Positions 1-64,000 of a stretch of 64,000 nt of DNA are shown in pieces (position 1 is the stretch's first letter; every line of letters begins with the position of its first letter). A program made the translations under genes and the position numbers. The notes under the pieces were generated by a model. It saw nothing but the letters and a program-made list of their open reading frames with translations. It searched no databases and was not told the DNA's origin. Source of the DNA: Norana najaformis (taxonomy: Eukaryota; Annelida; Clitellata; Crassiclitellata; Hormogastridae); contig OZ029916.1 of NCBI GenBank assembly GCA_964023275.1, positions 46,627,749 to 46,691,748 on the forward strand, written 5' to 3'.

Positions 1-235
1 GATAAAGAAGAAATCGAAGAAGAATTCTTAAAAGAAGAAGAAAAATGGAAGAAAAAAAGAAGAAGATGGTGATGATAATGGTGATGAATTAGATAGATAG
101 AAAGAACGAAAGGAACGCGATGACTTTTATTAAGTAAACTGTTGTGATTTTCAGGTGAAGAGATATTTGTCGTATAAAAGAGCCTTTTTAAGCAACAACA
201 TTAGTAAGCATTAGTAAGTCTGTTTGTTCAATACA
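1..235. other. Left edge of unit A, purine-rich lead
   Basis: GAAGAA-rich low-complexity DNA, then a stretch matching 42779-43003. No gene seen. The match fixes the 42.8-kb offset between A and A'. Confidence 0.7.
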
Positions 236-740
236 GCTGGGTTGTTGAATTCTGGTCCCATTATGCTAACCTTTGGTCGACTTTGGGACGGCAACTTTTA
301 GGGTTCGTTTACCTGGTAGCCACCATTAAGTAGTTGATCATATTGTAAACTGTGAGAGGAACTTAGCCGCATGCAATAAGCAAATTGCATTGTTAAAGAT
401 CCTTTCAAGCTCTTACGATATGATCCATATGGAGCCCGAACTGAAATTTTTAAACCGCCATTTGATTACGGCAGGTGCGTTTTTATGAAACCTGGTTCGA
501 CTGAAGTATTTGAACCCATGAGCTCAACCGGGATTCTTAGAGACGCCATTTTTAGTTTCTAAGTCCAGACAAGGCCAGCTGTTACCTTGAAATATGTTTA
601 CCATCTGGGCCTAGAGTAATTCGATGCGTTTGATTTTTCAACAGAATCAGCCCAGACACTATTTTCAGAAAGTTACAATTGGTGCGTTCAATATGAAAGC
701 TGCCGCTCTAAGAATACAAAGCCCACTTGAATATAAATTA
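236..740 (+). repeat. Unit-boundary direct repeat, copy 1
   Basis: Begins GCTGGGTTGTTGAATTCTGG and is related along its length to 16636-17260, 43004-43520 and 61437-61990. These four copies flank units A and A' in direct orientation. Confidence 0.65.
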
Positions 741-1820
741 TAGTAGGACAAGAAAACAGGTTTCAATACATGCATTTATGGGCTTTTGTTCTGCTGCATA
801 TCATCGCAAGCAACCACCATAGACGCCTACATAAACTTTTACACCGTATGACAAAAACTGTTCTTCTTAAAGTTCTCTGCCCCCGGGTCAATGACGAGCC
901 CCAGATTTGTACACTAATTTTAGTAGGACAAGAAAACAGGTTTCAATACATGCATTTATGGGCTTTTGTTCTGCTGCATATCATCGCAAGCAACCACCAT
1001 AGACGCCTACATAAACTTTTATACCGTATGACAAAAACTGTTCTTCTTAAAGTTCTCTGCCCCCGGGACAATGACGAGCCCCAGATTTGTACATTAATTT
1101 TAGTAGGACAAGAAAACATGTTTCAATGCATGCATTTATGGGCTTTTGTTCTGCTGTATATCATCGCAAGCAACCACCATAGACGCCTACATAAACTTTT
1201 ATACCGTGTGACAATTATTGCTCTTCTTCAAGTTCTCCGCCCCCGCGACAATGCCGAGCCCCAGATTTGTATATTAATTTTAGTAGGACAAGAAAACATG
1301 TCTCAATACATGCATTTATGGGCTTTTGTTCTGCTGTATATCATCGCAAGCAACCACCATAGACATCTACATAAACTTTTATACCGTGTGACAATTATTG
1401 CTCTTCTTCAAGTTCTCCGCCCCCGCGACAATGCCGAGCCCCAGATTTGTATATTAATTTTAGTAGGACAAGAAAACATGTTTCAATACATGCATTTATG
1501 GGCTTTTGTTCTGCTGTATATCATCGCAAGCAACCACCATAGACATCTACATAAACTTTTATACCGTGTGACAATTATTGCTCTTCTTCAAGTTCTCCGC
1601 CCCCGCGACAATGCCGAGCCCCAGATTTGTATATTAATTTTAGTAGGACAAGAAAACATGTTTCAATACATGCATTTATGGGCTTTTGTTCTGCTGTATA
1701 TCATCGCAAACAACCACCATAGACGCCTACATAAACTTTAATACCGTGTGACAATTATTGCTCTTCTTCAAGTTCTCCGCCCCCGCGACAATGCCGAGCC
1801 CCAGATTTGTATATGCTGCA
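741..1820 (+). repeat. Six-copy 180-bp tandem repeat
   Basis: Units start at 741, 921, 1101, 1281, 1461 and 1641, each opening with TAGTAGGACAAGAAAACA. Because 180 is divisible by three and the unit has no stop in one frame, a 323-codon ORF of 60-residue repeats arises (770-1741). It closes when the sixth unit has a T-to-A change giving TAA. A' has a single unit at the same place (about 43520-43700). The ORF has no recognisable domain and is probably not a gene. Confidence 0.88.
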
Positions 1821-1859
1821 TGCGTCAAACTTGAATAAGCATCGGCGAAGCAGAGGCTT

Positions 1860-1960
1860 TGAAATAGCGTCGACTGACAAGAAAGCCAACCGAAGGTTGT
1901 TGCTGTAGCGACTGCCATCATTGGTGATCGCGATTTCCCGCCTGATTAAAAGGCGTAGCT
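1860..1960 (-). pseudogene. Relic of a VWDE exon 15 in the spacer of A
   Basis: On the minus strand it reads RREIAITNDGSRYSNNLRL, against [11 protein letters not shown]...NSLQL in exon 15 of B. At DNA level the shared core is TGCCATCATTGGTGA on the plus strand, with flanks also alignable. The A' counterpart at about 43800-43890 is more eroded. It looks like the remains of an older gene copy. Confidence 0.5.
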
Positions 1961-2559
1961 TTAAGAGTAAAATCTGTAAATTATTTAGCCAGAACTCTAA
2001 AACATCTACTGTATTGCAATATACCACGGCCATATATATGTGTCTGTTGTGTAGCAATTATAGTGGTCTGCAGTCAGAGGTTATAGTGGTAAATTCAAGT
2101 AGCAAGCGAAAATTGTGTGGCGTAGACACTGTTTGTGTATATCTCTTCAAGAGTGTCTGCTCATTTCAGACCTTACTTTTAAGAGTGTCTCAAGTTATTG
2201 AGTGCGTATGTGTGTGTGGATATGCGTGTAGGCCATGTTTATGTATGTGCAGAGTGTATTATATGCATGCACGTACTTGTGCATGTTTTGCGTGTGTGTG
2301 TTTGCCTGTGCCAGTTCTGCAGCGTCTAAATAGTCTGTATCGCTTTGAGTTTGGAACAGCTAATATTGTTAACTTCTAATGCGCCGGTGTCTAATGCACA
2401 ACCGGTGGCTGTAACTGATGTTATTTTTCCGCCTACGAGGTTCCAAATAGCGCCTGGCCGAATCACATCCGAAAAACGCGTAATTTGTCAACGTTACCAG
2501 GTCACGAAATTTGTTTTCAAAAATGAAACGATGTCATCATAGCCTGCGTGACTGGACGA

Positions 2560-2960
2560 GGAGGGATGGGATTCTATGGTGTACCATTGAGCCTCAGATT
2601 CAAGTACTTATGTGCACAGTCTTCGGTCGGATGGTGGTCTCGGGGGAGGAGAAACGACGACAGTCTTTGGAGTGGCCTCGATCCTCGGTCGCGGATGGCC
2701 GTTTAACCTGCCGGGAGGCACACGGCAAATGCCTGTTCTATTCAGACTTGGAGGATCGATGGATATCAGGACCCTGCGACATCTGCCATCGATGAGGGAC
2801 TGCTGGGTGGTAATGTTATCAATTCAAATGCATTAAGGTTGATAGACCTGATGCGTCGGAAAGTTTTATTGTTTGGATTGGGGACGAGGAGATAACTCAG
2901 CATCGAGCTTGGTGAACATAAGATGGTGACCAGAGGGTAAATTGGGTTCTCAACTGAGGA
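2560..2960 (+). other. Conserved spacer block of unknown nature, copy in A
   Basis: Matches 44465-44870 closely. Two overlapping plus-strand frames are open in both, one ending CLFYSDLEDRWISGPCDICH before a stop, the other with MPVLFRLGGSMDIRTL. No domain is recognised. It could be an exon of another gene, an old repeat, or chance. Confidence 0.3.
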
Positions 2961-4090
2961 TTGGTGACAAGGAAATCAGGCAGAGGTGATGACTAGAGTT
3001 TAGATCAGGAACATGGTGGTATCCGTGAGTGGTGAAAGAACATGCTGGATCAGACTGAAGGCCCTGATGGAGAAATGAAACTGGGAAGCACGTCTATCAG
3101 AAGGATAGTCGATGTGATTGTTGAAATAACCAGTGAGTACAACTTCATGAGATCTGGTGATTACTGTACAATAGAAATTTTAAATCCTCGAGAAAATCTC
3201 CAGGTTTAACAGAGTTACGCGATGCTGTAGATAGACGTTCTAGAAAGTAAGTTTAGAAGTAGGTAGTTTCAGAGTGACAGAAGACGTTTCGAAGAAAGTG
3301 ATGAGTGACGCACTAATCATTGCATAACTTATTAATTAACCTACTGAGAACAATAATAGCATAAAACCAAAGCATTTATCTCACTTGTATTCGAATTTTA
3401 AATATTCGTGATCGATATATCTGATAGCTAATTCAACATTATCCCGATTCATAATTTTAATGACATAGTTGCACATTATCTACTAACTATTAGTGTACAT
3501 GTTTTAAGTTGAAAACAAATAAACTGCTATGGAGTTGCTATACTATGTAAAATGCTATATTAATAATGACATGCTAGCAAATTGCAAAAGGCCTATTAAG
3601 CTACTATAATACAAAGCATTGTTTGAATGTTCCTATTACTGTCAGAGTCCCTTTTAGCCGATTAATGTGAATTATTGTGAGCGTTGATCAATGATTTACT
3701 AAAAGCTACCTACTTAATTATTTCCATATTACTTTAACATCAACAGTTTTAAAACAACCTTACACTAAAAGAAGCTAACAAAGCAAATATGTTGTCCGGA
3801 TCAGTACTTATTTTTTTAATTAAACATTGGCCCTGATTTGTGCTAAGGGTTAAGTCTTGTTTCGGGTGATGATCCGTTTCCTTAGGGTTTAAGCAAAAGC
3901 AGAAGCGAGCTTGAACAAAAATACGATAGCAACGATGATGATTCCGACGTTCAAGGCATTATTGTGGAATCACTTGGCGCATCATTTTCTTTTAACTTCA
4001 TTCCTATTGGAGAAATAACATTTCAAACATTAGCGTATGCTGAATGGCATCAAAATATGTGTGTATGTATGATGTATATATTTATGTATG

Positions 4091-4380: not shown

Positions 4381-4506
4381 TTATTGTTCATCCTTTTGCT
4401 ATTCTGCTATCAATGTACTTACATTGGTTACTCTGCATGAAAGCTTCTGCGACCTGTAGAAATTCGTTGCAAAGATGGAAATCTCTGAGCAGAAAGAGGT
4501 TCGGAA

Positions 4507-4576
4507 GTCACACAAGGAACCCTTTCGGAAGGAGATCAGATCTCTGATCTCCTTCCGAAAGGGTTCCTTGTGTGAC
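4507..4576. repeat. Perfect 34-bp inverted duplication inside exon 14 of A
   Basis: Arms 4507-4540 and 4543-4576 are exact reverse complements with a 2-nt spacer. B (24509-24672) and A' (47288-47451) have only the one arm. The exon grows by 27 nt and stays in frame, adding nine codons between the EGF end and the FRKGSLCDF stretch. Confidence 0.9.
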
Positions 4577-6421
4577 TCAGTGGCGTCGATGGAGCAGTCT
4601 TCTCTAGCAAACCCTTTACAAACCAATAACAGGCTGTAACGCGATTCTTTTATCAATGTTCTTTGGCGTCTATTTCATGTATTCCTGCGTACTTTTAAGT
4701 TAGAACCGGGAGTAGATATTGTAAAGATTGTGAGGAGCTCAGGCTGGACTGTCCCACTGATGACCAAGGGTGACAAGTGCCCCAGGATGGATGGATGAAT
4801 GGATGGATGGATGAATCGATGGATGGACAGATGGATGGATTGAATGAAATGGACATATTTTAGGAAGGATGGATAGAAGGATGGCTGGAGGGACAGAAGA
4901 ACGGACAGAGGGACAGTGATAGAGAGTCAGAGACTGAGAGACAGGAATCGAGAGATTCGGGAAGCTTTATCAGTTTCTCACCGTCATTGCAAAAGCACGT
5001 TCCATTGCTACAGTTGCCGTTTCCGTTGCACTGACTGGGACAGACTAAGGAAACGACGTTTTCGAGGATAACTTCCTCCGGCTTTTTAACAGACGATCCA
5101 TTGGTTACCACTGAGTTTTCCAACTTATGGACGCAAATCGTTTGGAATGAACCGACTCTGCCACTCGCAGCCACGTTGACATCATCAGTTATCTACATGT
5201 ACAAGACCGATGCCACGACTAATTGAGGTGAATTAGGTTCACATATTTGAACAAATTAATTTGCAACCATTGGAACTTTTACGTAAACTGTAAAACTGCA
5301 AATAGTATCAAATGAAGTATTTCGATACATGCGTATCGTAGTTGTTCGTTAAACTCATTCTATAACACATGTTCACTTTTAAGGTGCAAATAGAACTACA
5401 ATTTCATATGAAGTGTTTTTGTTAAAAAACGGATTCATACAGTATAATACACAGGCCTGCAGTTACATTGACCTACAGTACAAATAAAGGCGAAATCATA
5501 GTATGATGTTCTTTTGTCTGGCTTTCTATCATCTCTTCGTGTAATTATTATTACTTAGACTGCTCTGCGAAATATGTTGTACTGGGGGCTGAGCTACAAT
5601 GGAATACACACACATATAATGACAAAAAAAGAGAGGGAACATAAACCGCAATAAAATCCTTCAAGAGAGCTGCGATACACATTTTCAAGCCCTGACTCAG
5701 GAAAACTAATCTAGCTGCCTGAATTAGATAAGCTTTGAAGTTGAAACCAAATCTGAAATGCCGCCCCGTTGTAAATATGCTGATGCATGGAAAAGGTACT
5801 GAAAGGCAAATAGCGACATTACTGATAGTAAAGGTCAGTACTGTGATGAAAATAGCTAAAAGAAAATACTGACCAAACACATGACAGCCCTTATTAGAAC
5901 TGCAAGGAAAACTATGAAGACTGATTAAACGCTTTGCACGTCTTTTAAATAATTCTGTATATTCTGTATTATATTCTGTATTGCCTTGTTAATAAGCGGT
6001 TGGAAAACCCTACTATTCCACTGGGGTATTATGTTGTCAGGGCGGGAGAACAGCAATGGAGTTTTATTTAAGATGCGGCATCAAAATGTACAGTTATCAA
6101 TAGGATTAAGATAATTTGCGTACCTATTGCTTTCAATTTCATCCATACCTGTAGATCTGAAACGCAGCTGGCGATTATTGCCTCTATGTTGTTGGTGATT
6201 CGATCTTTACACAGCTGATAGACAGGCGAGCTTTCCATCTTAGCCTGACACTTGCGTTTGGCCTCCACTTCGGTGATTCCACTCGCAGTTGGCCAGGTTA
6301 GCGTCACATTGACACCATGTTTCTCGTCGAACTGTGGCTGCGGAATATCAGCCTTCGTGATTATCAGTGCTCTTTTCGCTTCTGTTAGATGTGCAGTTTC
6401 AATTTGCCTTTTTCTTCTGCT

Positions 6422-6424
6422 TTA
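6422..6424 (-). other. Nonsense codon in exon 12 of unit A
   Basis: TAA replaces the CAA (Gln) of A'. The frame stays open to the exon end afterwards, so this is a point change rather than decay by indels. Confidence 0.8.
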
Positions 6425-7679
6425 ATTTGCGTTTCCACCGCAATTTTTTGTGAAGTTCGTTTCGAAGTTGTCCGTGACGGTGGATGGGTTGACGTTACGG
6501 GTCTCACAGGCAACCGGTGTGCTGCCTTCGCAAGAGCAAAAAATGGGGAGCGTTGCTTCCGTGTCGACGCATTCGATTTGGTAGATATGGCCGTTGAGGA
6601 AACTTTTTTCCGGTTTCAATCTAGGAAATTATAATTCAAGTGCATATGTACACTCCAGAATAGTCATCATATCAACTTTTCTTGGGTGTTGAGCATCAAT
6701 CGACGGCAGGTTAACCAGTTTTTAATGAACACCATCATCGTGTAAGCTAGTGATTAGCGTCTTCGAGATGCTTCAAAAGGCGCCATATAAATGTAAACAC
6801 ACATATTGTTATGGCATTGTTCTAGCGTTGTAGAGTATTAATATTTTTTCATCAATTATCCAAGGCTCGTACGCAAATTATAAGCGAGTAACTTACATTT
6901 TAAGTACCTTAGTTTAGGCGCTCAGTAAGTCTACCGATACGAACATACACTCTGCATCAAAAAGTAAAGATGCCATATCATACAGTGGAACCTAAGACAG
7001 GCGCTCATTTTCCGCTTTTCGGCCTCTTAGCCGGAATTGAATGAATCCCAAGATTCTTGATAGATCCAGTAATTCGCAGGACTTGATATTCATTTCCCGA
7101 TTTACGTTAGTACCAATTTCGAATGTGTAGCGACAGAGATGTGCGTGCAATGAATATCTCGAGGGTCGTTACGCAAAATCCGCTCAGCAGGTGCCAACCC
7201 GCAACCGTTAGATCATACAGCCACATGCTACAAATAGATCACCTTAACGCGCATATACTGCGCAGGTTGAACTACATATACACAAATATATACCTACGTT
7301 CCTGCATAAGTATCAACCAACAATATGAAGATTCGTATTTTTTATTTCAAGATAGTAAATAATACATATTTATTCAAGGATAATGGGAAAGCTATTAAAA
7401 ATTTGATAGATGCGTTGTACAAGAGAATAGTCGACACCTGTAGTTGTTGCTATAGGCTTCAGGTGTTGTGTCGTCTGAGATATCGCCGTTGTAATTACCA
7501 CAAAGCCCGGATGTCTTGTTGAAGTCTTCGCTATTCACATAAACGTAGATGTCAGCGGAGATGACTGGGCCATTGTGATAGAAATAGTTGATTGTGACAT
7601 AAGCACCTGATGGCATCGTTATCTTGAGAAGCACACAAACACACAGAAATACTAATTATTTAGTGATCCAGAGTCTAAC

Positions 7680-8085
7680 GAGGATACAATGAAATCTAAA
7701 CTAAGGACTTCTATAGCGCCGTTGTCGTAATGCTAAGGCGTCAATCGATGGTAGAATCAACTGAAATCGTAGTAAAAATCATGAACCGTTGAAGAGGACA
7801 TGTTGAATTGCGATAAGTCAGATATACCAGAACTTAGGCTACGTTGAGTGAGCAATGTGAAGCAGATGAGCCCTAAGTTTAGACGTGAAGGACATCCAAG
7901 TATTGACTCAACGAACAGAACTGGGCAGCCAATTCCAAAGCCTTGGACCAAATACCGAGAACACTCAAGAGCTTAAAACCGTCCTGGTACGAGGAACATC
8001 AAGTGTGACAGTGTCCGCTGATTGAATGTAGATGCGCTATACAAATTTGCGATTATCATTACAATCACATATTACTTCAAGCCTT
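7680..8085. repeat. LINE- or SINE-like 3' end next to exon 10
   Basis: Ends with GATGCGCTATACAAATTTGC and an ATTATCATTACAATCACA tail just outside the exon 10 donor. The same element sits in A' (50520-50918) and, diverged, in B (up to about 29900), so it predates the duplications. Confidence 0.45.
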
Positions 8086-8284
8086 CTTACTTTGTACTCG
8101 TTGCCACTGTTGGTGATTGTAGATCCTGGGACGTTCTGGTCTTTGAGATACGTGATGGGTGTCGGATTGTAGTTGGGTCCCTTGCAGGCGTTGGCAACCA
8201 AAACGTTGTTTCCCTCCCTCACGGCCACAGCGCAGTTGCAACTCACAGCCCAACACTTGTGCTGGCGTACGTGCACCTGCGCAC

Positions 8285-8780
8285 AGTACGGCAATAGTAA
8301 TAGTAACGGTAATAGTTATTTAGTAACAGTGACAGTATTAGTAACAGTATTAGTAAAAGTTTTAGTAATAATTACAGTAATAGTAATAATTATAGCAATA
8401 GTAATAGCAATAGTAACAGTTATAGTAATGGTAGTAGAAAGAATAATAGTTTAAGCAATAGTAGCAGTAATAATATTAGTAGTAGTTGCAGTAAGAGTCA
8501 CTGTAATAGTATTAGTAAAAGTAATAGTGATAATAACAGAAAAGGTAAAAATATTAGCAACAGTAAGAGTAGTGGTAATAGTAAATGTAAAATTAATAAT
8601 ATTAGAAATAGTAATAAAAATAGCAACAGTCATATCATTAATAATAGTGAGAGTAATAGTAAAAGTAATGGTACCTTTCATATTATTACTAGCAGTAATA
8701 GTCACAGTAACAGCAATAGTAAACGTATTGGTATTATTAATAGTAAGAGTAATGGTTATTGTTATAGCAATAGCAGTGGC
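8285..8780 (+). repeat. AGTAAT/AGTAAC-type satellite in intron 9 of A
   Basis: About 500 bp of degenerate GTAATA/GTAACA repeats directly upstream of exon 10. The matching tract in A' is 51118-51640. B has only a short trace near 30700-30750. Confidence 0.85.
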
Positions 8781-11700
8781 AGAAGCAAAGCAATAATAGT
8801 AGTCGTGCTCAAAATTATATAGCTTTCGGTGGGCATTAGGAATTTCAACTGGACCTATCCTAGAATGCTGACCTCAAAGTTACGTGAAGTACTCTTGGTC
8901 AAAACGAAATCACCTTCCGTGAAAAAATGGCAATACCTGGAAACAAGTTATAGGCCGACAAGATACTTATATATGTATGATAGCATTCAGACATTAGATA
9001 ACCACAACTGTTAAGAATAGTCCAGTGGTTCAGTTGCTAATTTTATTGTAGATATTAAGATATTATATCAGATATTAATATTAGTCAAGATATAATAGAC
9101 TGTCATAGTCCGTCCACATGTATGTTGAAGTCCATTATATTCACAATGAAACAGCCCCATTGTGTGCATGTCTTCTTGAATAGCATTTCGCCTATCGGTG
9201 CAGATTTTTCAATAAATAGCGATGAATGTGAAACACATGTCAGCATATGATACCCCTTACTGTACATTAAATTACATAGACTTATGTAGGTGGAAAAGTT
9301 TAGTGGCATTGTTAATGCGATGATGGTAGGCACAGTAAAGCTAAGCCTGGTTAGTTTTTTGGATGAGTTGGAATACCGTGCCATCTGACACCCACTCTGC
9401 CTCCTGTCCTTAGCTGGTTGGCAAATGAGTACGAACGCTGGTCGAGAGGTTGAAGAGTTGACCGTTTGCTGGAGGCCGTATTTGTGACTCACCGGAATGA
9501 TCATTCGATCTATGGAGAATGATTCTGAGGATGTTCCACAGAAGAATGTACACTTGCTGTTAATTACATCCTTACGCTTCTTAGGATTTTCTGTCATCGC
9601 TTACAAACAAGTATGCCTACTTTACCTTTGCGGTTCTGTGATGGGCGTCGAAATTCGAAGGAAGTGTTTTAGTCTACAGTTTTCCTGTAAGGTACGCCAT
9701 CAAAAATTCAAAATTTATGTAAAATGTTATTGAATCATGGACATAACCGGGCATAGCTTTACTGTTCAGGAATAGGTGTTAAAAGATTTTCAAATTGCAG
9801 AGGCTATGAAGTCTTGAACTAAATCAGATTCGAGGACGTATTGAGGATGCTATCGAACACTTAAACCCACTTTTTGTCAAATGTTGTGATGTGCGGATCT
9901 CCGACTGACGCACACTGAGCTGTTACTGAAGAGTCCTTGATGGTTGCCTACAATGAATCCCTTATGTACTAAGGCACCAAATGAGACATGAGCAAATCAA
10001 CATAACAAAATGATAATTCGGACTTTGAGACCTTTACTAACCTTAATTTGACTTCTTGTTTCTCTAACCTGTTGGATTTCAACAATGCTTTCCCAAAGAA
10101 TTAAGATTCTATGACGGCTTCACTAAAAGTGGCCATGAATTGTTGCCTTGTGCATTATGATGATGGCGCAATAGAATCAGTAGATTCGATTAGGTGAAGG
10201 TTAGGCCTATATTTTCTATTGGTATTCGGGCATCATCATATACAAATCGGACCCTAACAGGCGTACTCGTTAGACTTTGCGGGAAGTGTATGATAATTCG
10301 ATAAGAATCCCAAGTACCTCTTGATCAAACTGGAATTTAAGGTACCTAGCGAACATGTTGATCGCGTTCTAGCATACGTAATCACAAGGACAGAAATTAT
10401 TGATTGAAGATGCTATAGTGTGGTGCGATAGTTTGACTATTAGCTTTGTTTCAGTAGACGCTATAACAGGTTTTATGAAGATGCTAGTAAGGATTGATAA
10501 CTGACATTTCCAATAATTTGCAGTGGTTTGTAACAGATGAAATTCTTCGAGACAACTTAATGGAAAATTCTTGTACGCATATGATACCCATATGTGCATA
10601 TGTGTTGTTAAATGGTATGCAATGTTACGTTAAATTGTGATTTATTATGTTACTCACTGGAATTTCTGGAAGTGTGTAGTTATTCCAGAGGAATTCGTTA
10701 TACGTAGTGATCGGATTGAATCGGATGACGGAAGACCGTCGTTTAACTCCGGGGGTGGTCACTGCTTTGATCTTCAGCGTTCGCAGCTTCGTTTCCGACT
10801 GCAAGCCTCCGAAGTTCATGTTGCAGTTAGAGACGCCGAGTCGATCATCCTTTGGAATGTCGGCCACGGTGATTGAATATGCGCAGCTCGTCCGCTGGTC
10901 ACTTTCAGGACACGAGATCGGAACAGTCGCTTTGAAGTAGAGGTTCAGAGGAGGAGATTTCTCGTCTATTACGATTGGGGGGTTGGTGAACGAACCCTTG
11001 GTGTTGTCCTACAAACGCATGCATACATGTATATCTCGCGAATTTAACCAACTCATAGTACGCGAAGAGTGTATGTCGAGCGTACTTATGCCATCTGGGA
11101 CGGATTCGCACAATACGCCCCACACTTTCGAGTCAAGTCGTTACAACCCTGACACACACGTATTCATACTAACTAGGATTTATTATGGCAAATATTTCCT
11201 CACGCTTAACTCTTTTCCGCATTAACCATTTTAAATGCTGCGGCTCGTCCGATAGCCGTTTACCTAGATTTCTTGTGGGATGAACACTATTGGTTACCAA
11301 TGCAAAAACAAATTGAGTTTAAGATATTAATTCCATGCTTAATTGTCTTTATGAATGCATGCTTACAGTCATATCTTCTTAGGAGCTCTGTATCTGTGTC
11401 GCGTCTATCCATCGCCGTTGATCTATTAGTCTTGGTTCTGATGTGCAAGGTTACCTGGTTTGTTTCCTGCGAGAAATCCAAAGTCCATCATAGAAGCTAA
11501 GTTGTGGTCGATCCAATCTTTCTGGAATAGGCTGCCTAGCCACCTAAGACGTGAGTTATTTCTTTACTTCCCTTCGACACACGCTTCAAAATCAATGTCT
11601 ACACGCATCCAATCAATGTTAGTGATATAGTTTGTGGCTCAACATAAGATGGAGTTAAATGGTGTTGCCATGTAATCAGTTACATATGTGCACTACATTG

Positions 11701-12519
11701 CATGAAAAAAGTATCAAGTATTTGAGGAAGAGACGAAGAACGGTCCTCATTTCTTTACTTAGACATTCAGACGTCAATGGACAATTTTAAAGGTTTTGGA
11801 CACGAAGCCAGTGAGTGCATTGCAGGACTTGCCGTTATACAATACATCACAATACAGCCGTTCAGTCACCGAGTACAACGACACTAGATATTTTATCCGT
11901 ACTGTACTGTAGTTAAATCCGACAAAGTATGTCCTGTTGGCTTCAAGATTCGTACAGCTCGACTTCTTTACGCCCTTCCAATAGGGTCGGACCTTGCAAC
12001 CAACCTACAATTTGAGCAGCATGCTCACCGTGAAACATAGTACAGTAAGTCTCAGTAAGAAGAATTTGTTAAAATTAAAATTTATTTGCGGTTAAGTCGG
12101 AGGTAAAGTTAGAAAAGCGAGGCAAAATAAAGCAATGTAAGGCCAGGTTAAGCAAGGTAAGAAAAACATCTTTGACTGAATATTGTTGTGCATATCTTTA
12201 TAGCCTTACCGATAACCATCTTCTAGATTCACAGTCCATTCATTCATCATCAATTCATCCATCCATTCATTCATGGTACTGCATGTGAAATTTTGAGCAT
12301 TATAAAGACGCGACAAATAGACAAAGTCTACTTTACGATACAACTGAAATTTGGTAGTGTACTCATACAACAGTCAGAAGTGCACATTGACGCTTGGCAG
12401 CAGAAAATATTTGGAACCCTAAACACGCTGTAAGAGGGAAATATTCACTTTAGAGCGAAATAAAGTCTCTGTTAAATATGAAGACGCATTGCTCGAATAT
12501 TAATCACTGTCTACTTTGT

Positions 12520-13991: not shown

Positions 13992-14470
<479 letters not shown>

Positions 14471-21339: not shown

Positions 21340-21390
<51 letters not shown>

Positions 21391-51117: not shown

Positions 51118-51640
51118 AGTACGGCAATAGTAATAGTAACGGTAATAGTTATTTAGTAACAGTGACAGTATTAGTAACAGTATTAGTAAAAGTTTTAGTA
51201 ATAATTACAGTAATAGTAATAATTATAGCAATAGTAATAGCAATAGTAACAGTTATAGTAATGGTAGTAGAAAGAGTAATAGTTTAAGCAATAGTAGCAG
51301 TAATAATATTAGTAGTAGTTGCAGTAAGAGTCACTGTAATAGTATTAGTAAAAGTAATAGTGATAATAACAGAAAAGGTAAAAATATTAGCAACAGTAAG
51401 AGTAGTGGTAATAGTAAATGTAAAATTAATAATATTAGAATTAGTAATAAAAATAGCAAGTCATATCATTAATAATAGTGAGAGTAATAGTAAAAGTAAT
51501 GGTACCTTTCATATTATTACTAGCAGTAATAGTCACAGTAACAGCAATAGTAAACGTATTGGTATTATTAATATTAAGAGTAATGGTAATTGTAATAGCA
51601 ATAGCAGTGGCAGAACCAAAACAATAATAGTAGACGTACT
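51118..51640 (+). repeat. AGTAAT-type satellite in intron 9 of A'
   Basis: Same degenerate hexamer tract as 8285-8780, with small indels between the two. Confidence 0.85.
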
Positions 51641-54600
51641 TAAAATTACATAGCTTTCGGTGGGCGTTAGGAATTTCAACTGGACCTATCCTAGAATGCT
51701 GACCTCAAAGTAACGTGAAGTACTCTTGGCCAAAATGAAATCTCCTTCCGTGTAAAAATCGTAGTACCTGGAAACAAGTTTTAGGCCGACAGGATACTTA
51801 TATATGTATGAAAGCATTAAGATATTAGATGACTACAACTGCTAAGAATAGTCAAGTGGTTCAGTTGCTAATTTTATTGTAGTTCAGATATTAATATTAG
51901 TCAAGATATAATAGACTATCATAGTCCGTCCACATGTATGTTGGAGTCCATTATATTCACAATGAAACAGCCCCACTGTGTGCCTGTCTTCTTAAATAAG
52001 ATTTCGCCTATAGGTGCAGATTTTTCAATAAATAACGATGAATGTGAAACACATGTCAGCATATGATACCCCTTACTTTACATTAAATTACATAGACTTA
52101 TGTAGGTGGAAAACCTCGTGGCATTGTTAATGCGATGATGGTAGGCACAGTAAAGCTAAACCTGGTTAGTTTTTGGATGAGTTGGAATACCATGCCATCT
52201 GACACCCACTCCGCCTCCTGTCCTTTGCTGGTTGGCAAATGAGTACGAACTCTAGTCGAGAGGTTAAAGAGTTGACCGTTTGCTGGAGGCCGTATTTGTG
52301 ACTCACCGGAATGATCATTCGATCTATGGAGAATGATTCTGACGATGTTCCACAGAAGAATGTACACTTGCTGTTAATTACATCCTTACGCTTCTTAGGA
52401 TTTTCTGTCAACGCTTACGAACAAGTATGCCTACTTTACCTTTGCGCTTCTGAGATGGGCGTCGAAATTCGAAGGAAATGTTTTAGCCTACCGTTTTCCT
52501 GTAAGGTACGCCATCAAAAATTCAAAATTTATGTAAAATGTTATTGAATCATGGACATAACCGGGCATAGCTTTACTGTACAGGAATAGGTGTTAAAAGA
52601 TTTCAAATTGCGGAGGCTATGAAGTCTTGAACTAAATCAGATTCGAGGACGTGTTGAGGATGCTATCAAACACTTAAACCCACTTTTTGTCAAATGTTGT
52701 GATGTGCGGATCTCCAACTGATGCACACTGAGCTGTTACTGAACAGTCCTTGATGGTTACCTACAATGAATCACTTATATACTAAGGCTCCAAATGAGAC
52801 ATGAGCAAATCAACGTAACAACAATGATAAATCGGACTTTGAGACCTTTACTAACCTTACCTTGACTTCTTATTTTTCTAACCTGTTGGATTTCAACAAT
52901 GCTTTCCCAAAGAATTAAGATTCTATGACAGCTTCACTAAAAGCGGTCATGAATTGTTGCCTTGTGCGTTATGATAATGGCGCAATAGAATCAGTAGATT
53001 CAATTAGGTGAAGGTTAGGCCTATAATTTCTATTGGTATTCGGGCATCATCATATACAAATCGGACCCTAACAGGCGTACTCATTAGACTTTGCGGGAAG
53101 TGTATGATAATTCGATAAGAATCTCATGTACCTCTTGATCAAACTGGAACTTAAGGTACCTAGCGAACATGTTGATCACGTTCTATCTTACTTAATAAAA
53201 AGGACAGAAATTATTGATTGAAGATGCTATAGTGTGGTGCGATAGTTTGACAATTAGCTTTGTTTCAGAAGACGCTATAACAGGTTTTATGAAGATGCTA
53301 GTAAGGATTGATAACTGACATTTCCAATAATTTGCAGTGGTTTGTAACAGATGAAATTCTTCGAGACAACTTACTGGAAAATTCTTGTACGCATATGATA
53401 CCCATATGTGCATATGTGCTGTTAAATGGTATGCAATGTTACGTTAAATTGTGATTTATTATGTTACTCACTGGAATTTCTGGAAGTGTGTAGTTATTCC
53501 AGAGGAATTCGTTATACGCTATGATCGGATTGAATCGGATGACTGAAGACCGTTGTCTAACTCCGGGGGTGGTCACTGCTTTGATCTTCAGCGTTCGCAG
53601 CTTCGTTTCCGACTGGAAGCCTCCGAAGTTCATGTTGCAGTTAGAGACGCCGAGTCGATAATCCTTTGGAATGTCGGCCACGGTGATTGAATATGCGCAG
53701 CTCGTCCGCTGGTCACTTTCAGGACACGAGATCGGAACAGTCGCTTTGAAGTAGAGGTTCAGAGGAGGAGATTTCTCGTCTATTACGATTGGGGGGTTGG
53801 TGAACGAACCCTTGGTGTTGTCCTACAAACGCATGCATACATGAATATCCCCAGATTTTAACCAACTCATAGTACGCGAAGAGTGTATGTCGAGCGTACT
53901 TATGCCATCTGCGACGGATTCGCACAATACGCCCCTCACAACTCAAGCCGTTACAACCCTAACACACACGTATTCCTACTAACCAGGATTTATTATGGCA
54001 AATATTTACTCACGCTTAACTCTTTTCCGCATTAACCATTTTAAATGCTGCGGCTCGTCCGATAGCCGTTTACCTAGATTTCTTGTGGTAGGAACACTAT
54101 TGGTTACCAATGCAAAAACAAATTGAGTTTAAGATATTAATTCCATGCTTAATTGTCTTTATGAATGCATGCTTACAGTCATATCTTCTTAGGAGCTCTG
54201 TATCTGTGTCGCGTCTATCCATCGTCGTTGATCTATTAGTCTTGGTTCTGATGTGCAAGGTTACCTGGTTTGTTTCCTGCGAGAAATCCAAAGTCCATCA
54301 TAGAAGCTAAGTTGTGGTCGATCCAATCTTTCTGGAATAGGCTGCCTAGCCACCTAAGACGTGAGTTATTTCTTTACTTCCCTTCGATACACGCTTCAAA
54401 ATCAATGTCTACACGCATCCAATCAATGTTAGTAATATAGTTTGTGGCACAACATAAGATGGAGTTAGATGGTGTTGCCATGTAATCAGTTACAAATATG
54501 CACTACATTGCATGAAAAAAGTATCAAGTAATTGAGGAGGAGACGAAGAACGGTCCTCATTTCTTTACTTAGACATTGAGACGGCAATGGACAATTCTAA

Positions 54601-55139
54601 AGGTTTTGGACACGAAGCCAGTGAGTGCATTGCAGGACTTGCCGTTATACACTACATCACAATACAGCCGTTCAGTCACCGAGTACAACGACACCAGATA
54701 TTTTATCCGTACCGTACTGTAGTTAAATCCGACAAAGTATGTCCTGTTGGCTTCAAGATTCGTACAGCTCGACTTCTTTACGACCTTCCAATAGGGTCGG
54801 ACCTTGCAACCAACCTACAATTTGAGCAGCATGCTCACCGTGAAACATAGTACAGTAAGCCTCAGTAAGAAGAATTTGTTAAAATTAAAATTTATTTGCG
54901 GTTAAGTCGGAGGTAAAGTTAGAAAAGCGAAGTAAAATAAAGCAATGTAAGGCCAGGTTAAACAAGGTAAGAAAAACATCTTTGACTGAATATTGTTGTG
55001 CATATCTTTATTGTCTTACCGATAACCATCTTCTAGATTCACAGTCCATTCATTCTTCTAGCCACCCATTCATTCATTCATGGTACTGCATGTGAAATTT
55101 CGAGCATTATAAGGACGCGAATATTAGACAAAGTCTACT

Positions 55140-55360
55140 TTACAATGCAACAGAAATTTTGGCTACTACGTCCCCATATGAAAGCTGAAGTGGTCATAAT
55201 ATTATGAATCGTAAACAGACTGGAAGAGATAAGTATCCATCTAAGAGCAAAAGATAGTTTCGGTAAAAGAGTCGCGCGAACATTGAGAGGTAGACAGTTC
55301 CAAATGTTCTTACCAGTTACCAGAGTTGGCAAAAACAAGAACAAGATATTTTCAAGAAGA
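55140..55360 (-). mobile_element. LINE ORF C-terminal remnant in an intron of A'
   Basis: Counterpart of 12520-12740, with the same GKNIWNCLPLNVRA stretch. Confidence 0.5.
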
Positions 55361-56607
55361 AACATACATTTCAGAAAAGAACATGCTTCTGCCATTGATG
55401 TAAGATCTACAAGGCAGCAATAATGTTGGCGTCTATAAGTCTTACTCGTTTTCCCATTTCACCCTTCAACTCTTTCGACCACAGTCTAACGTTGAGGTTG
55501 GATCCGTCTGTTATTTTCGGAGCCATGCTGTTCACTTCCTTTTCGTCAAAGGTAAAGACGACCTCAAACTGTTCTCCCTTCGCCAGGTTATCCGGATTCG
55601 ACCAATTGATGTTGCAAGCGAAGAAGAAATCTTTGTATGGTTATCCAAGTTTTGTGGTCTTTTTTACAATGACTGGTCCTTCAAACTCCGCGCTCTAGAT
55701 TAGAACAAGGAGCTGAAACGACGCACAAGTAACATCTGCACAAATATCTTAATGTTTTCGTGTCTGACACCATGTCTGTCTATGCTGGTATCTCATATAT
55801 CTAAATAAGTGCAACTTATGATAAGTTTTAAGTATATCCTGCGCTGTCTCTTTTGTAATAATACATATTCAGTGAGATGTCGTTCTAGATGGACAGTAAA
55901 ACTCACGAGAAAGAGTAATACTTTATATTCCACGTTGCCTTACGTCAACTGGTATCTCTTCAACCTTCTGTGACTTGCCTGAAACAGCCCTAATTGCGAA
56001 GTTTCACGTATGTAAGACAAGAGGACAACTAGAGCGGCTGCAGTGAATATCCCAAGAGCTAAAAGATGGCACCCGGTAGACCCAGAACCACGTGTTCGAG
56101 AACAATCAAAAAAGCTTTGCAACATGACCCATTTATGCTGCACACTGTAAGGAGACATAGCCTAGGAAAGAAAAGCGCAACGCCACGTAGTCGATACAGC
56201 TACACTCATTTGAGTTCTCGCCCAGAGAGACACACATATCTATATGGCAAAGACAAAGACTCAGAGCGATAAAGAAAGAACGTGCGAAAAATAGTCAGAA
56301 TATGACACAGAGAAAAAGATAATGTCAGACGTAGAAAGCAGGGAGATAAGGAGAGAGAAGGATGATGGTACGAGAGGAAAGCGAGTGGAAACAAAAAGAG
56401 TACAGAAAAATGGATAAATAGAAAGAAATAGAGAAAGAGAAGAGAAAGGTCATAGAAAGGCACATGGAGAGAGACAGTTAAAGACAGACAGATATGTATA
56501 TAGATACAGACAGCCAGAGTAAAAGGATGATCGACCCGGTAAGAGTTGTGTGGCCCTGAACAGTGAAGGAGTTGTTGCTCGGGCTAAGACAGAGAATATG
56601 ACAGCAT

Positions 56608-56930
<323 letters not shown>

Positions 56931-58226
56931 AGCATGCAAGGATACATGGATGCATGGAAGCATGGATATATGGATGGTTGAATGGATGGATGCATAGAGA
57001 CAGAGAGTCGTGCTATTCATACTTGTACAAGTGTGCTGTTTGGGTTGGAAGTGGTTCCCGTCTTACAAACGACAGCATTTACAGCGCAGTAGGCCATGTT
57101 GCAGTTGGGTGGTTTCTTTAGGCGATACACGTAGAAGTCTTCGTCATCGTTAGATGTTGCGATGCAGTACATGGAGCTGATGGTTGCCTTCCAGCCTCCG
57201 CAACAATCGTTTATGTTCGTATCAGAGGAACAAACGTCGAGGCTCTTTGGTCCAGGATCCTGCGCTGCAGTACACAAAAGAACCTACCGATGGAGCTCCA
57301 AGATATCATCATACAGTATATAACAGTTATTAACAAATCATCAGTGTCGTCAACATCATCATCGGTATCATCAACAACATTGCCAGCAGTATCATAAGAA
57401 TCAGTCCCCTCAGTATCATGATTGTTTTCATCGTCACCATCATCTTCATGATTATCGTAACCATCATTGTCATTATCATCATCCTCATTATCACGAACTT
57501 CTTCTTTTTCTTCATAATCTTAATCACTGTAACAATTTTCATTTTCATCATTGTCACTAAATCATCATTAATCATTTATGATTCTACGTCATCGTCATCG
57601 CCGTCGTCGTCGTCATCATCATTAGCAGCAGGAGGCTGCATCAAGCTGCAAGTAGATTGATTGTTGTTGCTACATGTTGGATGTGTGCCATTCACCCAGA
57701 TGGGTCTTTGAGTGCCGCATTTTAATCCAGTCACACATCTGTCATGGAGACGGTACGGAGGCAAAACGTCGAATCGATACCACAGATCTGAAATAAAAAT
57801 TATTGTTATTATTATAATTTATTTATTTATTTATTTATTTTCGAAAATAAACAAAGTACAAGGATGCAGTCCAAACAAAATCAATAGAGTTCAAAAAGTG
57901 AAAATGCTGATGTCTCATTACTACTTTTCACATACAAATCATGGGTCTTCCACTGGTTCAGACAATATATTCCATTGGATATGCATTCCCGAATTGTAGT
58001 TCCAGGTCCAAGCCTGGATAAAAGCGGAGGTTGACGCTATTTATCATCGTTATGGCGCAACGTCGTTAAACAGCAACTACAGAAAGACCCATGTCATTTT
58101 TATTATATTATGTTAGGCTATGCTATGCTACTATGCTATGTCATGTCACATAACGTCGTGTCATTGTATGTTATCTTACGTCATGTTATGTTATGTTACG
58201 TTAATGCAGTTCATAGCGTAGCTTAC

Positions 58227-58264: not shown

Positions 58265-60617
58265 CCCTGGACAACAAATTTTTACAAAGGTCATGTTACT
58301 GAAATGAAATTAGTCAGTTCTTATCAATTTGTATGTGCTGAACACGAATATGACAGTGAAAATGCCGAATTGGCTCTAGTTTTTTTGTAATCTGAAACGA
58401 AGTAATTTTATATCGCACAATGCATGCCAATAGTGATACACTTACAGTTAATATTTGTAAAAACCAGGTCATAGACTAGTTCTTAGATTTTTTTGCCTGT
58501 CTCTTGTACAGCTGTTCGGGAGCATCTCTGCGGAGTGTCCAGCAGTAGTCAGCCAACATTGTAGTGGACCATTTTCCCTGGTACCTTTGCTCCATTGTTG
58601 CGATATCTTGATGAAAACGTTCGCCGTGTTCATCACTAACCATACCACAGTTGTCAGGGAAGAAATCCAGATGGGAATGAAGGAAATGCATCTTCAGAGA
58701 CATATTGCAGCGAAATTTCTGGTACTGCTTGAGCATGTCTTCTACTAGTTCCTTGTAGTTTTCTGCCCTAACATTCCCCAGAAAGTCTGTAGACACTAGA
58801 CGAAAAGCATTCCATGCTTGTTTCGCATCACCCTCCAGCAAGTTGTTGAAGCGGTCATCTTTGAAGAGTTCTCTAATCTGAGGACCCACAAAAACTCCCT
58901 CTTTAATCTTTGCTTCGCTGAGTCGAGGGAATTTTTCATGCTGGTATCGGAAAGCTGGCGAAGTGCGGTCCATGGCTTTCACGAAGTTCTTCACCAAACC
59001 TAGTTTGATGTGAAGGGGTGGTAGTAGGATTTTGTGAGCCTCGACCAGAGCTGGGTGCTGGATATTCTTCTGTCCAACTGCCATGTTTTGTCTGGGAGTC
59101 CATTCCTTCCGCACGTAGTGCAACTCTCTTGCTCGGCTATCCCACTCACACAAGAAACACATATATTTTGTATATCCTTGCTGCAGTCCCATTAAAATGG
59201 CAACTACCTTCAAATCACCACACATGTGCCATTTGTACCTGTTATAGTCAATGGAATGCAGTAGCTGTTTTAGGTTATCGTATGTCTCTTTCATGTGGAC
59301 AGCATGCGCTAATGGAATAGATGGAAGACGGTTTCCATTGTGCAAAAGCACAGCCTTAAGACTCAGTGTTGAAGAGTCTACAAAGAGTCTCCATTCTTGT
59401 GGGTCATGAGTGATCTGTAAGGCATTCATGAGGTCGTCAATATTGGAACAGAATACCAGATTACCTTCCTTCATAAAGAAAGGTTCCAACTGCTGATGGC
59501 GCTTTCTATATGAAGTAATTGTGACATCTTCTTCTAGAAGATTCCATTGTTGGAGTCTTGATCCTAGCAATTCTGCCTTGTTTTTGGATAAGTCCAAATC
59601 ATGAACAAGGTCATTTAGTTCTTCCTGTGTTATTCTGTGTGGGGTTGATGATGCACCACAGTGAAAATCGGGATCACTGCACGCTGACGGACCAGGAGAA
59701 GAACATGTCGGCTCACCCTTGTCCTCATCAGATGAATCAAGAAAAATATATTCTGCTGGAGGTTCTGGAATAGGAAGTCCATCACCATGTGGAACTGGTC
59801 TCAATGCTGACGGAATGTTTGGGTAGACAATTGTCGACTTCTTTTGCTTCGTTATTCCACCGGAAAGAGAAGGAACCAAGCAGAAGTAACAGTCATCTAC
59901 GTGGTTGCTTTGCTCTCTCCACACCATGGGAACTGCAAACGGCATTGATGGTCTTTTGCCATTCAACCACTGTGAAAGCTGTGTTGTACATGTAGCACAG
60001 CATATATGCGGGGCCCATGGCTTGTCTTGGTCACCAACCTTGCATTCGAAGTAAGCATGACATGCCTTCTTGACTTGATAAGTGATACTTTTCTTCTGGT
60101 TGGCAAATGTCACTTCCCCACAAATGTAACAAAAGTTGTCCACAGTATTTACGCACTTCCGAGGCATTACTGTTCTGTATTGTATCTAAATGGATAAAGT
60201 AATAATAGTTTTATAAAACAGTAACTTAAACTGTCTCGCACAAAGTCTGTAATATTGTAAATGCTCAACCGTTCCGACTCGCTTTATATAGTACACTGCT
60301 GACGTCATCTTACGTCAGCAGCCGACTGGCTGTAGTTTTACATTGCATCAGAAAATGACGTAATCAACTGTGCATGATGTGTCCATGATGGGATTATGCA
60401 ATGAGGTGGAATATTACATCATTCTAGACTTATTTAGGATATTGTCGCAGTCCTACTGAATAAATTTACATGGTGAAACATAAAAAATGAACTATATGAA
60501 ATATTTTCAAAACGAGAGCCAATAAAATTTTTTTATGGTTATATTCGTGTTCAGCACACCAAGATGCTACACATTAGGGCCTTTTCCAGTCAGTAACGAT
60601 TTCTATGTTGACCAGTG
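58265..60617 (-). mobile_element. DNA-transposon-like insertion in exon 2 of A'
   Basis: The empty site is seen in A and B: GACGTCATTA in A' continues in the others as TCGATGTCGGTG. The insert runs from CCCTGGACAACA to a right end whose complement starts CACTGGTCAACA. Further in, both ends share GTGCTGAACACGAATAT (58335-58351 and complement at 60541-60557) and TTGGCTCT, so the ends form long imperfect inverted repeats. No target-site duplication is visible; about four target bases are missing. It contains one long ORF on the minus strand. Superfamily was not assigned. Confidence 0.75.
58476..60167 (-). CDS. 563-codon ORF of the inserted element, repeated invertebrate family of unknown function
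   Basis: An uninterrupted ORF starting MPRKCVNTVDNFCYICGEV. Two CxxC pairs (FCYICGE and HICCATC) about 40 residues apart look like an N-terminal zinc-binding module, comparable in style to ZAD or THAP fingers. An acidic, Ser/Pro-rich stretch lies near residues 140-175. The C-terminal part has DEHGERFHQDIATMEQRYQG and LADYCWTLRRD. Proteins with this start and this C-terminal motif are known in many copies in arthropod and other invertebrate genomes, which fits a transposon gene, possibly a transposase. No catalytic DDE triad could be fixed by eye. It is intact, so the insertion may be young. Confidence 0.72.
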   Translation of the reverse strand: MPRKCVNTVDNFCYICGEVTFANQKKSITYQVKKACHAYFECKVGDQDKPWAPHICCATCTTQLSQWLNGKRPSMPFAVPMVWREQSNHVDDCYFCLVPSLSGGITKQKKSTIVYPNIPSALRPVPHGDGLPIPEPPAEYIFLDSSDEDKGEPTCSSPGPSACSDPDFHCGASSTPHRITQEELNDLVHDLDLSKNKAELLGSRLQQWNLLEEDVTITSYRKRHQQLEPFFMKEGNLVFCSNIDDLMNALQITHDPQEWRLFVDSSTLSLKAVLLHNGNRLPSIPLAHAVHMKETYDNLKQLLHSIDYNRYKWHMCGDLKVVAILMGLQQGYTKYMCFLCEWDSRARELHYVRKEWTPRQNMAVGQKNIQHPALVEAHKILLPPLHIKLGLVKNFVKAMDRTSPAFRYQHEKFPRLSEAKIKEGVFVGPQIRELFKDDRFNNLLEGDAKQAWNAFRLVSTDFLGNVRAENYKELVEDMLKQYQKFRCNMSLKMHFLHSHLDFFPDNCGMVSDEHGERFHQDIATMEQRYQGKWSTTMLADYCWTLRRDAPEQLYKRQAKKSKN

Positions 60618-60722: not shown

Positions 60723-61254
60723 CTGCGTCGCACCAAAATTACCCATACGATGAATTACCATGTGATGTAAAGTATGCAAACCAAAGTAAAGTTAAACTTG
60801 TCTGTCTTAAAATTAAACTTAATAGAGCGCCTTTAAAGTACTTCTCGAATTCAGATTGGACCTCTGACTCCATAGATTTCCAAGCATGCATCAGAATGCA
60901 CGTATCGGGCGGCTTAATATATCGCCTTTTCAGTAACTTTCTGACTGGATTACAAATGCTTCACATCTAGTTCGAATACACAAAACAATGCCATTTTATG
61001 AAATACTATGATGAAAAGTACTATGTATGTTTCTAGACATTTAAAATAGCGCATTTAAGTATATCTAAAAACTCGCCAGCAGCGACCTTTTGAAAAACGT
61101 CTGTAAGATTTTTTCTACCTACCAAGCGCTACATATAGACGACGCGATGTCTATGTCACATACTTATACTTACCTGTCAATAGAAACAGGAACATGCTGA
61201 TCTGCTTCGACAAAAGTCACAGAGAATTCTGATGTGGAACACCAGTATGAGGCC

Positions 61255-61262
61255 TTTAAATA
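61255..61262 (-). promoter_or_regulatory. TATA-like box of unit A'
   Basis: TATTTAAA at 60 nt from the ATG, with the same surrounding sequence as unit A. Confidence 0.45.
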
Positions 61263-61436
61263 CGCTCAGAATTCGCATGTAGTAGAGGAAGGGGTGGTTT
61301 CTAGGCCACATTGCAAAAAAAAAAACAAGAAGTTGTTACAAGCAAGCTCGGTAAACTATAGAGCTGAAAATGAGAAAATGGAGTCCTTATCTTACTTGGA
61401 AACATAATTCGCGTAAATGTTCTTATTATTTCATGA

Positions 61437-62070
61437 AGCCGGGTTGTTGAATTATGGTCCGTTATGCCTACCTATGGCCTACTTTGGGCGATAAATTTTA
61501 GGGCATCTTGACTCTACCTTCTAGCTAACATTAAGTAGTTGATCACATTCTTAAATGTGAGAGGAACTTAGCCTCGTGGAATTAACAAATTGCTTCCTTA
61601 ATGATCCTGTTGAGCTATTGCGATATAACCCCTTTGGAAACCTGAAATCCTAAAAGCGATATTTGATTATGATAACTGAGTTTTAAGAATCCCGGTTGAA
61701 CTGTAAGCATGTAACAGCATGAGCCAAACGAGATTCTTAGAAACCACAATTCAAGTTTCGAAATCCAGACTAGGCCAGCAGTTACATCGAAATATGTTTA
61801 CCATAACTCGAAATATTTTCTGGGTCTAGAGCTATTTGATGGCTGAATCAACAGAATCGGCCCACACACTTGGACTGTTTTATGAGAGTTACAGTGGTGC
61901 AGGCAATACGAAAGCTTCCGCTTTAAGGATTAATAGTCAACTTGATTACTAATTATAGTAGGAAAAGAAAGCAAGTTACAAGGTATGCATTTATGGGCAT
62001 TTGTTCAGCTGTATAACAATGAAGTCAAGGCGTCCTGCATAAGCTCTGATACCGTGTGGCAATTAATGTA
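61437..62070 (+). repeat. Unit-boundary direct repeat, copy 4 (above A')
   Basis: Nearly the same as 16636-17260, placed just above the A' promoter. Confidence 0.65.
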
Positions 62071-64000
62071 AACAGATAATATAATTTTATGATGCTTTTG
62101 ATACTAAACTCCTCAAGTTCGGTCACGATTCAGTGTCTTGGTGCAATTATGTATGTAGGTACGTATGCATGTATGTATGTAAGTACGTATGTATGTATGT
62201 ATGTATACATGTATGTATGTATGTCTGTATGTTTTTCTGTATATATGCATGTATGAATGCATGTACGTATTTATATATGTTTGCATGCATCTAGTCATTT
62301 ATTATGGCGCCGTTACTGACACTTCTTCGCAAGTGGTTGAGGACGCAGCGTCTGGATATTCCTCAAGCCACCTGGTCTCTTCAAGGCAGGCCTTCGTCAG
62401 CTTCATGCTGATTGGGCGTAGAACCTATCCGTAGTTGTCATTCGACCCTATTCCAAAGCATGTGCTTCTCCGATGCATCATCAAATCCGACGCAGATGGC
62501 ATATGTAAGTATGGCGCTCGACAATGTTCAGGCTGGAATCAATCTATACGTTTTCAGGTCGATCAATTCAAAAGATCTTTGGTGTTTGGTGATATCTAAA
62601 CAAAAATTGTACCCTACAAAGCACACTCAGTCCAAAGAAGGCAAGATATAAACTCTGAAGGATTGGCTGAGGGAGTGACCCATGTTTATGTCAAGGCGGT
62701 TACATCAGAAGGGCCTTGCAGGATGAAATTAGGCTACGGAGGGCTATTTCTTGTTGATAGATGAGCGGATATTAAGTGTGCAGAGATGAACGAAGGATGA
62801 GACAATAGGGCATGAATTTGGGTGAACGTCCCGCATCACAAAAGCAGGATATTTGGAAATAATTTCTTTTGGTCGAAGTTGGCGCGAGGTGTTCTTATAA
62901 AATGAGCCAGTGAAATGATTAAACAGTTCGGCTGTAGCGGTTATGCATGGTGTGTAGGAATGAGGGACGTATGGATATTCCGTGGAAGGCTATACAGTGT
63001 AGGCTGAAAAGGAAGAGCCGGAGTATTATTATTATTAGTAGTAGTAGTAGTAGGAGGAGGAGGAGGAGGAGGAGGAGGAAGAAGAAGAAGAGAGTTGATG
63101 CATGCATGAGATGTTGTCAAAGTTGGTTGGCAAGAGAGTAGACTAGGAGTTAAAACAAAGGGTAGAGACGATAGGGAAATAATTAGGATTTAAGACCACT
63201 AAGAAGAGTTAAAAGGCACGAAACGAACTCACTATGTCTGAAGATAATTCAAGGTAAAAACTCAGGTTGCGATATCAGAAGAGACTCCAAAATTTTAGCA
63301 AATACAGATCACAAAAGAACGCGCCGCGCATCTGCTGACTCTCCTCGTTACTCTTTTTGCTGCCGCTTCGTTTGTAAGAATGTTTTGTTCTATTTACGAC
63401 TGTGTAAATACAGTTTGCGTGGGCTTTGATTTTTCCGCTTACTAAAATTTTGTTTCGTAGCATATTTTGCTATCAAGGCAAAGGACAATTTAAAATTTAT
63501 CTCACAACGTTTGTCAAAAGTGTGCGAAGTCGCCTCTGTCGTCTTCGCCTCGGAAGAGATTTGACATCAGATAGAGGGGCGGTATAATTGATACTGACTT
63601 CCTGGCCTGGATTAATGGAGGTGTTTCCTGGTCAGTTTTATAATTTTCTGAACACCTCGCGAAAAATACAAAATCGACATCTCTCCGTCTCTGTCTCTCG
63701 TCTCTCTCTCTTTGTTCCTCAAAACATATTCTACTTCTCAGTCAGTCAGTCAGTCAGTATCTGTCAGTCAGTCCAGTCAGTCAGTCAGTCAGTCAGTATC
63801 TGTCAGTCAGTCCAGTCAGTCAGTCAGTCAGTCAGACAGTCAGTCAGTATCTGTCAGTGTGTCTGTCGGTCTGTCTGTCGGTCTGTCTGTCTCTTTTTCC
63901 TGTATTGTTTACACACATCTGCGTCTTTCAGTGCTTCTGTGTGTATGTATGTATTTATGTATGAATGTGTATATGTATGTATATATGTATGTAAGAATGT
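62071..64000. other. Spacer above unit A', copy of 17261-19190
   Basis: Same order as above A: ATGT repeats (62150-62290), the segment 62410-62650 (counterpart of 17617-17857), GTA/GGA repeats (63025-63095), CAGT repeats (63735-63890) and ATGT at the window edge. No gene recognised. Confidence 0.65.

Follow-up and report, generated by a model that had tools for sequence, protein, structure and literature searches.

The 64,000-nucleotide stretch of the Norana najaformis genome analyzed here (C4:46627749-46691748, from a genome of 608 Mb in 17 contigs; hereafter, the window) is part of a tandem cluster of VWDE-like genes of two diverged types, A and B. The types alternate along the chromosome, and we hold, at a probability of roughly 78%, that this alternating array arose by tandem copying of an A-B pair. 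Within the window, two A-type units (A and A') enclose one B-type unit (B1). Flanks were read over C4:46560001-46760000, inside which the window sequence was located with exact identity; coordinates below are window based, with negative values to the left of it. Exon mapping of flanks and window gave six units, all on one strand, in the order B0-A-B1-A'-B2-A'', with one unit (B0) beyond the left edge and two (B2 and A'') beyond the right edge (Table 1). The alternation spans more than one period, as in a tandem array with a dimer block.

Self-comparison of the window bore out an initial annotation, made from the letters alone, in which A and A' were described as similar and the unit between them as more diverged. 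A (1-19189) matches A' (42779-64000) at an offset of 41.9 to 42.9 kb, which grows to 44.8 kb past a 2.35-kb insert in A'. The two are identical at 94.9% of 16,779 ungapped columns, a count that excludes the 2.35-kb insert, 940 bp of A' without a match in A, A 891-1809 (the bulk of a 180-bp array), and microsatellites (A 8293-8773, 13991-14466, and 18936-19084, and the stretches corresponding to them in A'). Because the match touches both window edges, its true length cannot be known from the window alone; the 19 to 21 kb first given for it holds for the window but not as a repeat length, the real repeat being the A-B pair of about 42 kb. B1 (22198-40434) aligns in colinear order with both A (3306-16471) and A' (45230-61271). 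Over 7,468 three-way columns, A and A' are 95.6% identical, and B1 is equidistant from both at about 78.7% (A-B, 78.7%; A'-B, 78.6%).

The flanks of the units carry the same alternation to either side. A 5' flank block is present in four copies, at 235-800, 16635-17264 (A), 43002-43642 (B1), and 61437-62015 (A'), and the B1 copy is tied to its gene through more short colinear pieces. Among 552 ungapped columns of this quartet, 93 sites pair B0 and B1 against A and A', compared with 1 and 0 for the alternative pairings. Since 235-800 groups with the B block, it was read as the upstream flank of a B-type unit left of the window, which was later found as B0. On the right, a second B-like unit had been predicted about 3 kb past position 64000, and B2 was found there: the left edge of A-B homology (A 3306 = B1 22198) recurs at 66830, 2.8 kb past 64000, and the last exon of B2 is at 68170. 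The A-to-B spacer has its counterpart at 60618-68169, between A' and B2. A copy of just A and its flanks, placed beyond B1, would suffice for the pattern within the window; yet a like-aged B-type unit follows A', and the A-B spacer was copied too, with no break above about 150 bp. That route is refuted for this assembly by the position of B2 to the right of A', and we give it next to no credence.

The pair A-B1 diverges from the pair A'-B2 by 4.74% over 40,201 aligned bases, both spacers included, and 21 of 21 2-kb windows of this alignment lie between 3.0 and 8.0%. Other pairings diverge more: B0-A against B1-A' gives 5.39% (its A half is common with the first comparison), and the others give 6.00% and 6.78%. 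Synonymous divergence (dS; computed with exon limits of A'' and B2 before their correction, which affects few bases) is 0.066 (0.046 to 0.091) for A-A' and 0.075 (0.056 to 0.095) for B1-B2, followed by 0.094 (0.069 to 0.119) for B0-B1, 0.109 for B0-B2, 0.120 for A-A'', 0.124 for A'-A'', and about 0.30 to 0.33 between A and B types. The like dS of A-A' and B1-B2, together with the low divergence across the pair, fits tandem duplication of an A-B pair and not conversion of A alone. The dimer duplication with a period near 42.8 kb put forward in the initial annotation is supported by these values and by the continuing unit order; conversion between A and A', offered there as the alternative, was rejected as the sole cause, since it would leave older spacers and an older B1-B2 pair.

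Gene conversion could also be held to have made A and A' alike with no recent dimer duplication, a reading that finds its footing in patchy divergence. Private sites counted per 500 columns gave variance/mean ratios of 13.8 for A'' (at most 2.07 in 300 shuffles), 10.45 for A (owing to a single window of 57, close to a microsatellite), 7.74 for B0, 6.92 for B2, and 3.82 for A', all exceeding the shuffles, and 1.70 for B1, inside the shuffle range; divergence is patchy in five of the six units. In A'', private sites per window number 23 to 85 at A 8.1 to 12.3 kb and 2 to 8 at 6.5 to 8.1 kb. Local mutation rate can explain part of this patchiness. The likeness of A and A', however, runs on at a similar level through both spacers and all of B1-B2, and the sites at which B1 agrees with just one of the two (A, 143; A', 138) show no clustering, with 148 runs against 141.8 expected. 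We regard this reading as quite improbable; conversion probably acts here as a secondary process rather than as the origin of the A-B-A' pattern. Within the window, B1 was not detected to have converted A or A', such sites being balanced and unclustered.

A junction test was set beforehand: if an A-B pair was added by copying between B0 and A'', the B side of the B1-A' spacer should be like the B2-A'' spacer and its A side like the B0-A spacer. A single change point fits best at 45043-45048 (chi2, 51.6; reached by 0 of 2,000 shuffles). To the left of it, 183 sites are like B0-A and 236 are like B2-A''; to the right, where the preference is clear, the counts are 87 and 18. The change point at about 45.04 kb is likely to mark the junction of the last dimer duplication, which would make this spacer a hybrid. 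Among the A types, rooted sites (5,692 columns kept) number 70 for grouping A with A' and 25 and 18 for the alternatives, and the exon tree joins A and A' at 100%. A tree of eight units, in which a 5'-truncated B copy from further left and an inverted unit from beyond A'' were added to the six, pairs B0 with the truncated copy (100%).

Several observations count against tandem copying of the pair. The last three windows of the pair comparison (39.1 to 45.0 kb, in the spacer) stand at 5.8 to 6.6%, and the dS interval of B1-B2 overlaps that of B0-B1. At the junction, the left side leans only slightly, with neutral pieces at 40230-43660 (47 versus 39 and 71 versus 69 sites), and the change was expected near 43.7 kb and found at 45.0 kb. 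Rooted sites of the A types in exons E11 to E9 have no preference (13, 14, and 12). For the B types, rooted sites number 32, 27, and 15, and those in E10 to E9 favor B0 with B1 (19 versus 7 and 2). The pairing of B1 and B2 is insecure: the six-unit exon tree joins them at 59%, and the eight-unit tree separates them (74%), placing B1, B0, and the truncated copy on one side and B2, the inverted unit, and the A types on the other. The tree evidence is mixed: it appears to back a dimer block for A and is undecided for B. B0 differs from B1 and B2 by 5.6 to 5.9% and A'' from A and A' by 8.5 to 8.9%; as B0 is less diverged than A'' from its own type, the older event is not clean.

The two pairs A-B1 and A'-B2 might instead be two haplotypes of one locus assembled in tandem, an artifact that would likewise give a tandem copy of about 42 kb, like ages, and a joint at the same place in the spacer. 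It would leave the alternation intact, because B0 (5.6 to 5.9%) and A'' (8.5 to 8.9%) are extra copies, and at most one pair could be explained in this way: three A and three B units, with within-type pairs at least 4.7% apart, are not all two haplotypes, but the youngest pair alone could be. The artifact would also need a 4.7% difference, dS of about 0.07, and two A alleles dead by different lesions, which amounts to very high heterozygosity. Such heterozygosity is rare, though known in some sea squirts. We consider a haplotype artifact improbable, though less so than conversion of A and A'.

Under tandem copying of the pair, an older duplication would have produced the alternating order B-A-B-A, and a single A-B pair, about 42 kb long, would then have been copied in tandem, giving B0-(A-B1)-(A'-B2)-A''. 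As both spacers flanking the pair are of the same B-A kind, unequal crossing over between these homologous spacers would be a natural route, leaving the hybrid B1-A' spacer; we infer both this mechanism and the order of events. After copying, A and A' would each have been inactivated by mutations of their own, while B0, B1, B2, and A'' would have kept open frames.

Exon limits of B1 were picked at AG/GT such that the frame stays open, and the fit is therefore not independent. Transferred by alignment to B0, B2, and A'', these limits have AG/GT at every internal splice site and leave the frame open. The B1 protein contains D8C (PF23283; 39.2 bits, cut-off 27), VWD (PF00094; 36.3 bits, cut-off 22.9), and EGF (PF23106; 29.3 bits, cut-off 24.3; a single stretch) domains above Pfam cut-offs, and in PDB its D8C part is matched by chains of uromodulin and GP2. 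D8C is an N-terminal component of VWDE. Judged from this predicted protein, the units resemble VWDE, which one report describes as expressed in the blastemas of vertebrates, with a von Willebrand domain, no TSP1 domains, and a likeness to another protein that lies mainly in EGF repeats (PMC9117669). The likeness to VWDE as portrayed there lies in the VWD and EGF domains, and no TSP1 family was found here in Pfam at E ≤ 0.1; the differences are the one EGF stretch in the modeled part, the multicopy cluster, and the signal peptide exon, as no conserved first exon or signal peptide exon was recognized when frames opening with ATG were listed for the sequence upstream of E1 of A and B1. We infer that the protein is secreted. 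Inside the B1 gene, a reverse transcriptase-like open reading frame (ORF) on the plus strand (25433-26518) scored 28.3 bits, just under the Pfam cut-off of 29.6. In the window, Rfam gave no match at gathering scores, and a tRNA scan, which used the bacterial code, found none.

On their reconstructed frames, A and A' are pseudogenes that were inactivated separately. In A, codons 2, 198, and 601 are premature stops, E11 carries a 27-bp insertion, and E12 and E13 are absent, about 940 bp with this segment being deleted at about 4277; in A', codons 142, 720, and 868 are stops, and E2, E3, and E9 are frameshifted. None of these lesions is common to both. A frameshift in E4 seemed to be common to A and A' and was rejected, as it is gone once the donor site is set, by our own choice, at an earlier position where the B1 frame is open. 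The frames of B0, B1, B2, and A'' are open through to the normal stop. The ratio of nonsynonymous to synonymous divergence (dN/dS) is 0.56 (0.38 to 0.87) for A-A', 0.25 to 0.41 among B types, and 0.32 to 0.42 between types; these values, whose intervals overlap, suggest that A and A' were constrained for a time and then decayed separately. Selection on B might maintain the alternation: every exchange would duplicate a pair, of which the A copy would then tend to be lost, and A units would serve mainly as spacers and conversion partners. Full-length B units are open in three of three cases and A units in one of three; counting against this idea, B copies have been lost too (an E5-truncated B-like unit and a remnant with E11 and E1, both further left), and we find it very doubtful.

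Several smaller features accompany these units. The 27-bp insertion in E11 of A sits within a 35-bp inverted copy of the exon's own sequence (4543-4577) and is template-switch-like, and E12 of A'' (101770-102132) has a 99-bp in-frame internal duplication. Between E3 and E2 of A lies a microsatellite with a 4-base unit (consensus AGAC; 13996-14466), whose counterpart in A' is a GATA array (56608-56932). The ends of the 2.35-kb insert in A' are imperfect inverted sequences, and within it lies a minus-strand ORF of 569 codons (60185-58476) that scored above cut-off for none of the Pfam families and had no relative among viral contigs. No target-site duplication was seen at this insert, whose edges lack 4 bases of the empty site. 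A 65-bp E12-like piece lies outside the gene models in the B-A spacer, at 1880-1944 and 43815-43879, and recurs past the window at 97368 and 98606.

A probe with exon 5 found 16 genomic places at E ≤ 0.001, all on C4 (16 of 16 candidates scored): 15 are on the minus strand at 46.29 to 46.74 Mb, and one is on the plus strand at 47.18 Mb. With the places concentrated in this way, the window belongs to a local cluster of about 450 kb. Further left (-79761 to -69897) is another B-like unit, broken off within E5, with a diverged unit next after it (-65815 to -50829); a B-like remnant at -29386 to -28766 has only E11 and E1, directly adjoining, as after internal deletion. To the right of A'', E2 and E1 are the sole exons found in a remnant at 119197-119824. 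The inverted unit (C4:47172001-47192000), about 0.44 Mb past A'', has an open frame and a mosaic look. It is clearly A-like in E6 and E6b and slightly so in E5, E7, and E8, with most other exons nearer B; such mosaic affinities suggest exchange between the types.

Table 1. Units, spacers, and other mapped features of the array
Feature	Position	Strand	Description
Unit A	4423..15331	minus	VWDE-like pseudogene, E1 (15331-15218) to E11 (4613-4423); exon mapping
Unit B (B1)	23485..38415	minus	VWDE-like gene, 14 exons, 936 codons, one terminal stop
Unit A'	46271..57787	minus	VWDE-like pseudogene, 14 exons
A' segment with E12 and E13	46204..47143		Present in B1, missing from A
2.35-kb insert	58265..60617	minus	Private to A', near its 5' flank; absent from A and B1
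B0	-19278 to -4909		Left of the window; exons 88.6 to 100% identical to B1
B2	68170-82540 (exons)		Right of the window; 95.0 to 99.3% identical to B1 by exon
A''	101247-112990		A-like unit, right of B2; exon map
Spacer B0 to A, right part	1..3305	none	Flank-block quartet; B0 found in flank sequence
Spacer A to B1	15818..23484	none	A 5' flank block (16635-17264) and B1 3' flank
Spacer B1 to A'	38416..45229	none	Change of affinity at about 45043-45048
180-bp unit, six copies	727..1814		In the B0-A spacer; roughly a single copy at the corresponding site, 43509-43669

In satellite DNA, higher-order repeats arise when a multiunit block is copied, so that nearest relatives are not neighbors. Here, too, a multiunit block and not a single unit would have been copied; in contrast to those repeats, which have short monomers, the array is built of multi-exon genes, and its dimer period is about 42 to 55 kb. 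The array mechanism is already well known, and the closest of the described cases compared here is the silkmoth chorion locus, where tandem A/B gene pairs occur along with pseudogenes, conversion, and a group in reversed order (PMC4639761). In both arrays, two related types are paired over a long tandem stretch, duplication and gene conversion are invoked, stop-codon pseudogenes lie amid intact copies, and there is a small part in reverse orientation. Peculiar to the chorion locus, according to the same source, are late pairs arranged head to head with a shared promoter region, short genes, and three classes with 8, 15, and 21 pairs (PMC4639761); the N. najaformis genes are long, six lie on one strand, and three pairs were read. 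A B-like unit predicted from raw sequence just past the edge of the window proved to be there. For the gene family, the cluster would represent datable growth by copying of a two-gene block, with several copy generations still lined up on one chromosome and two copies in the array already dead by separate mutations.

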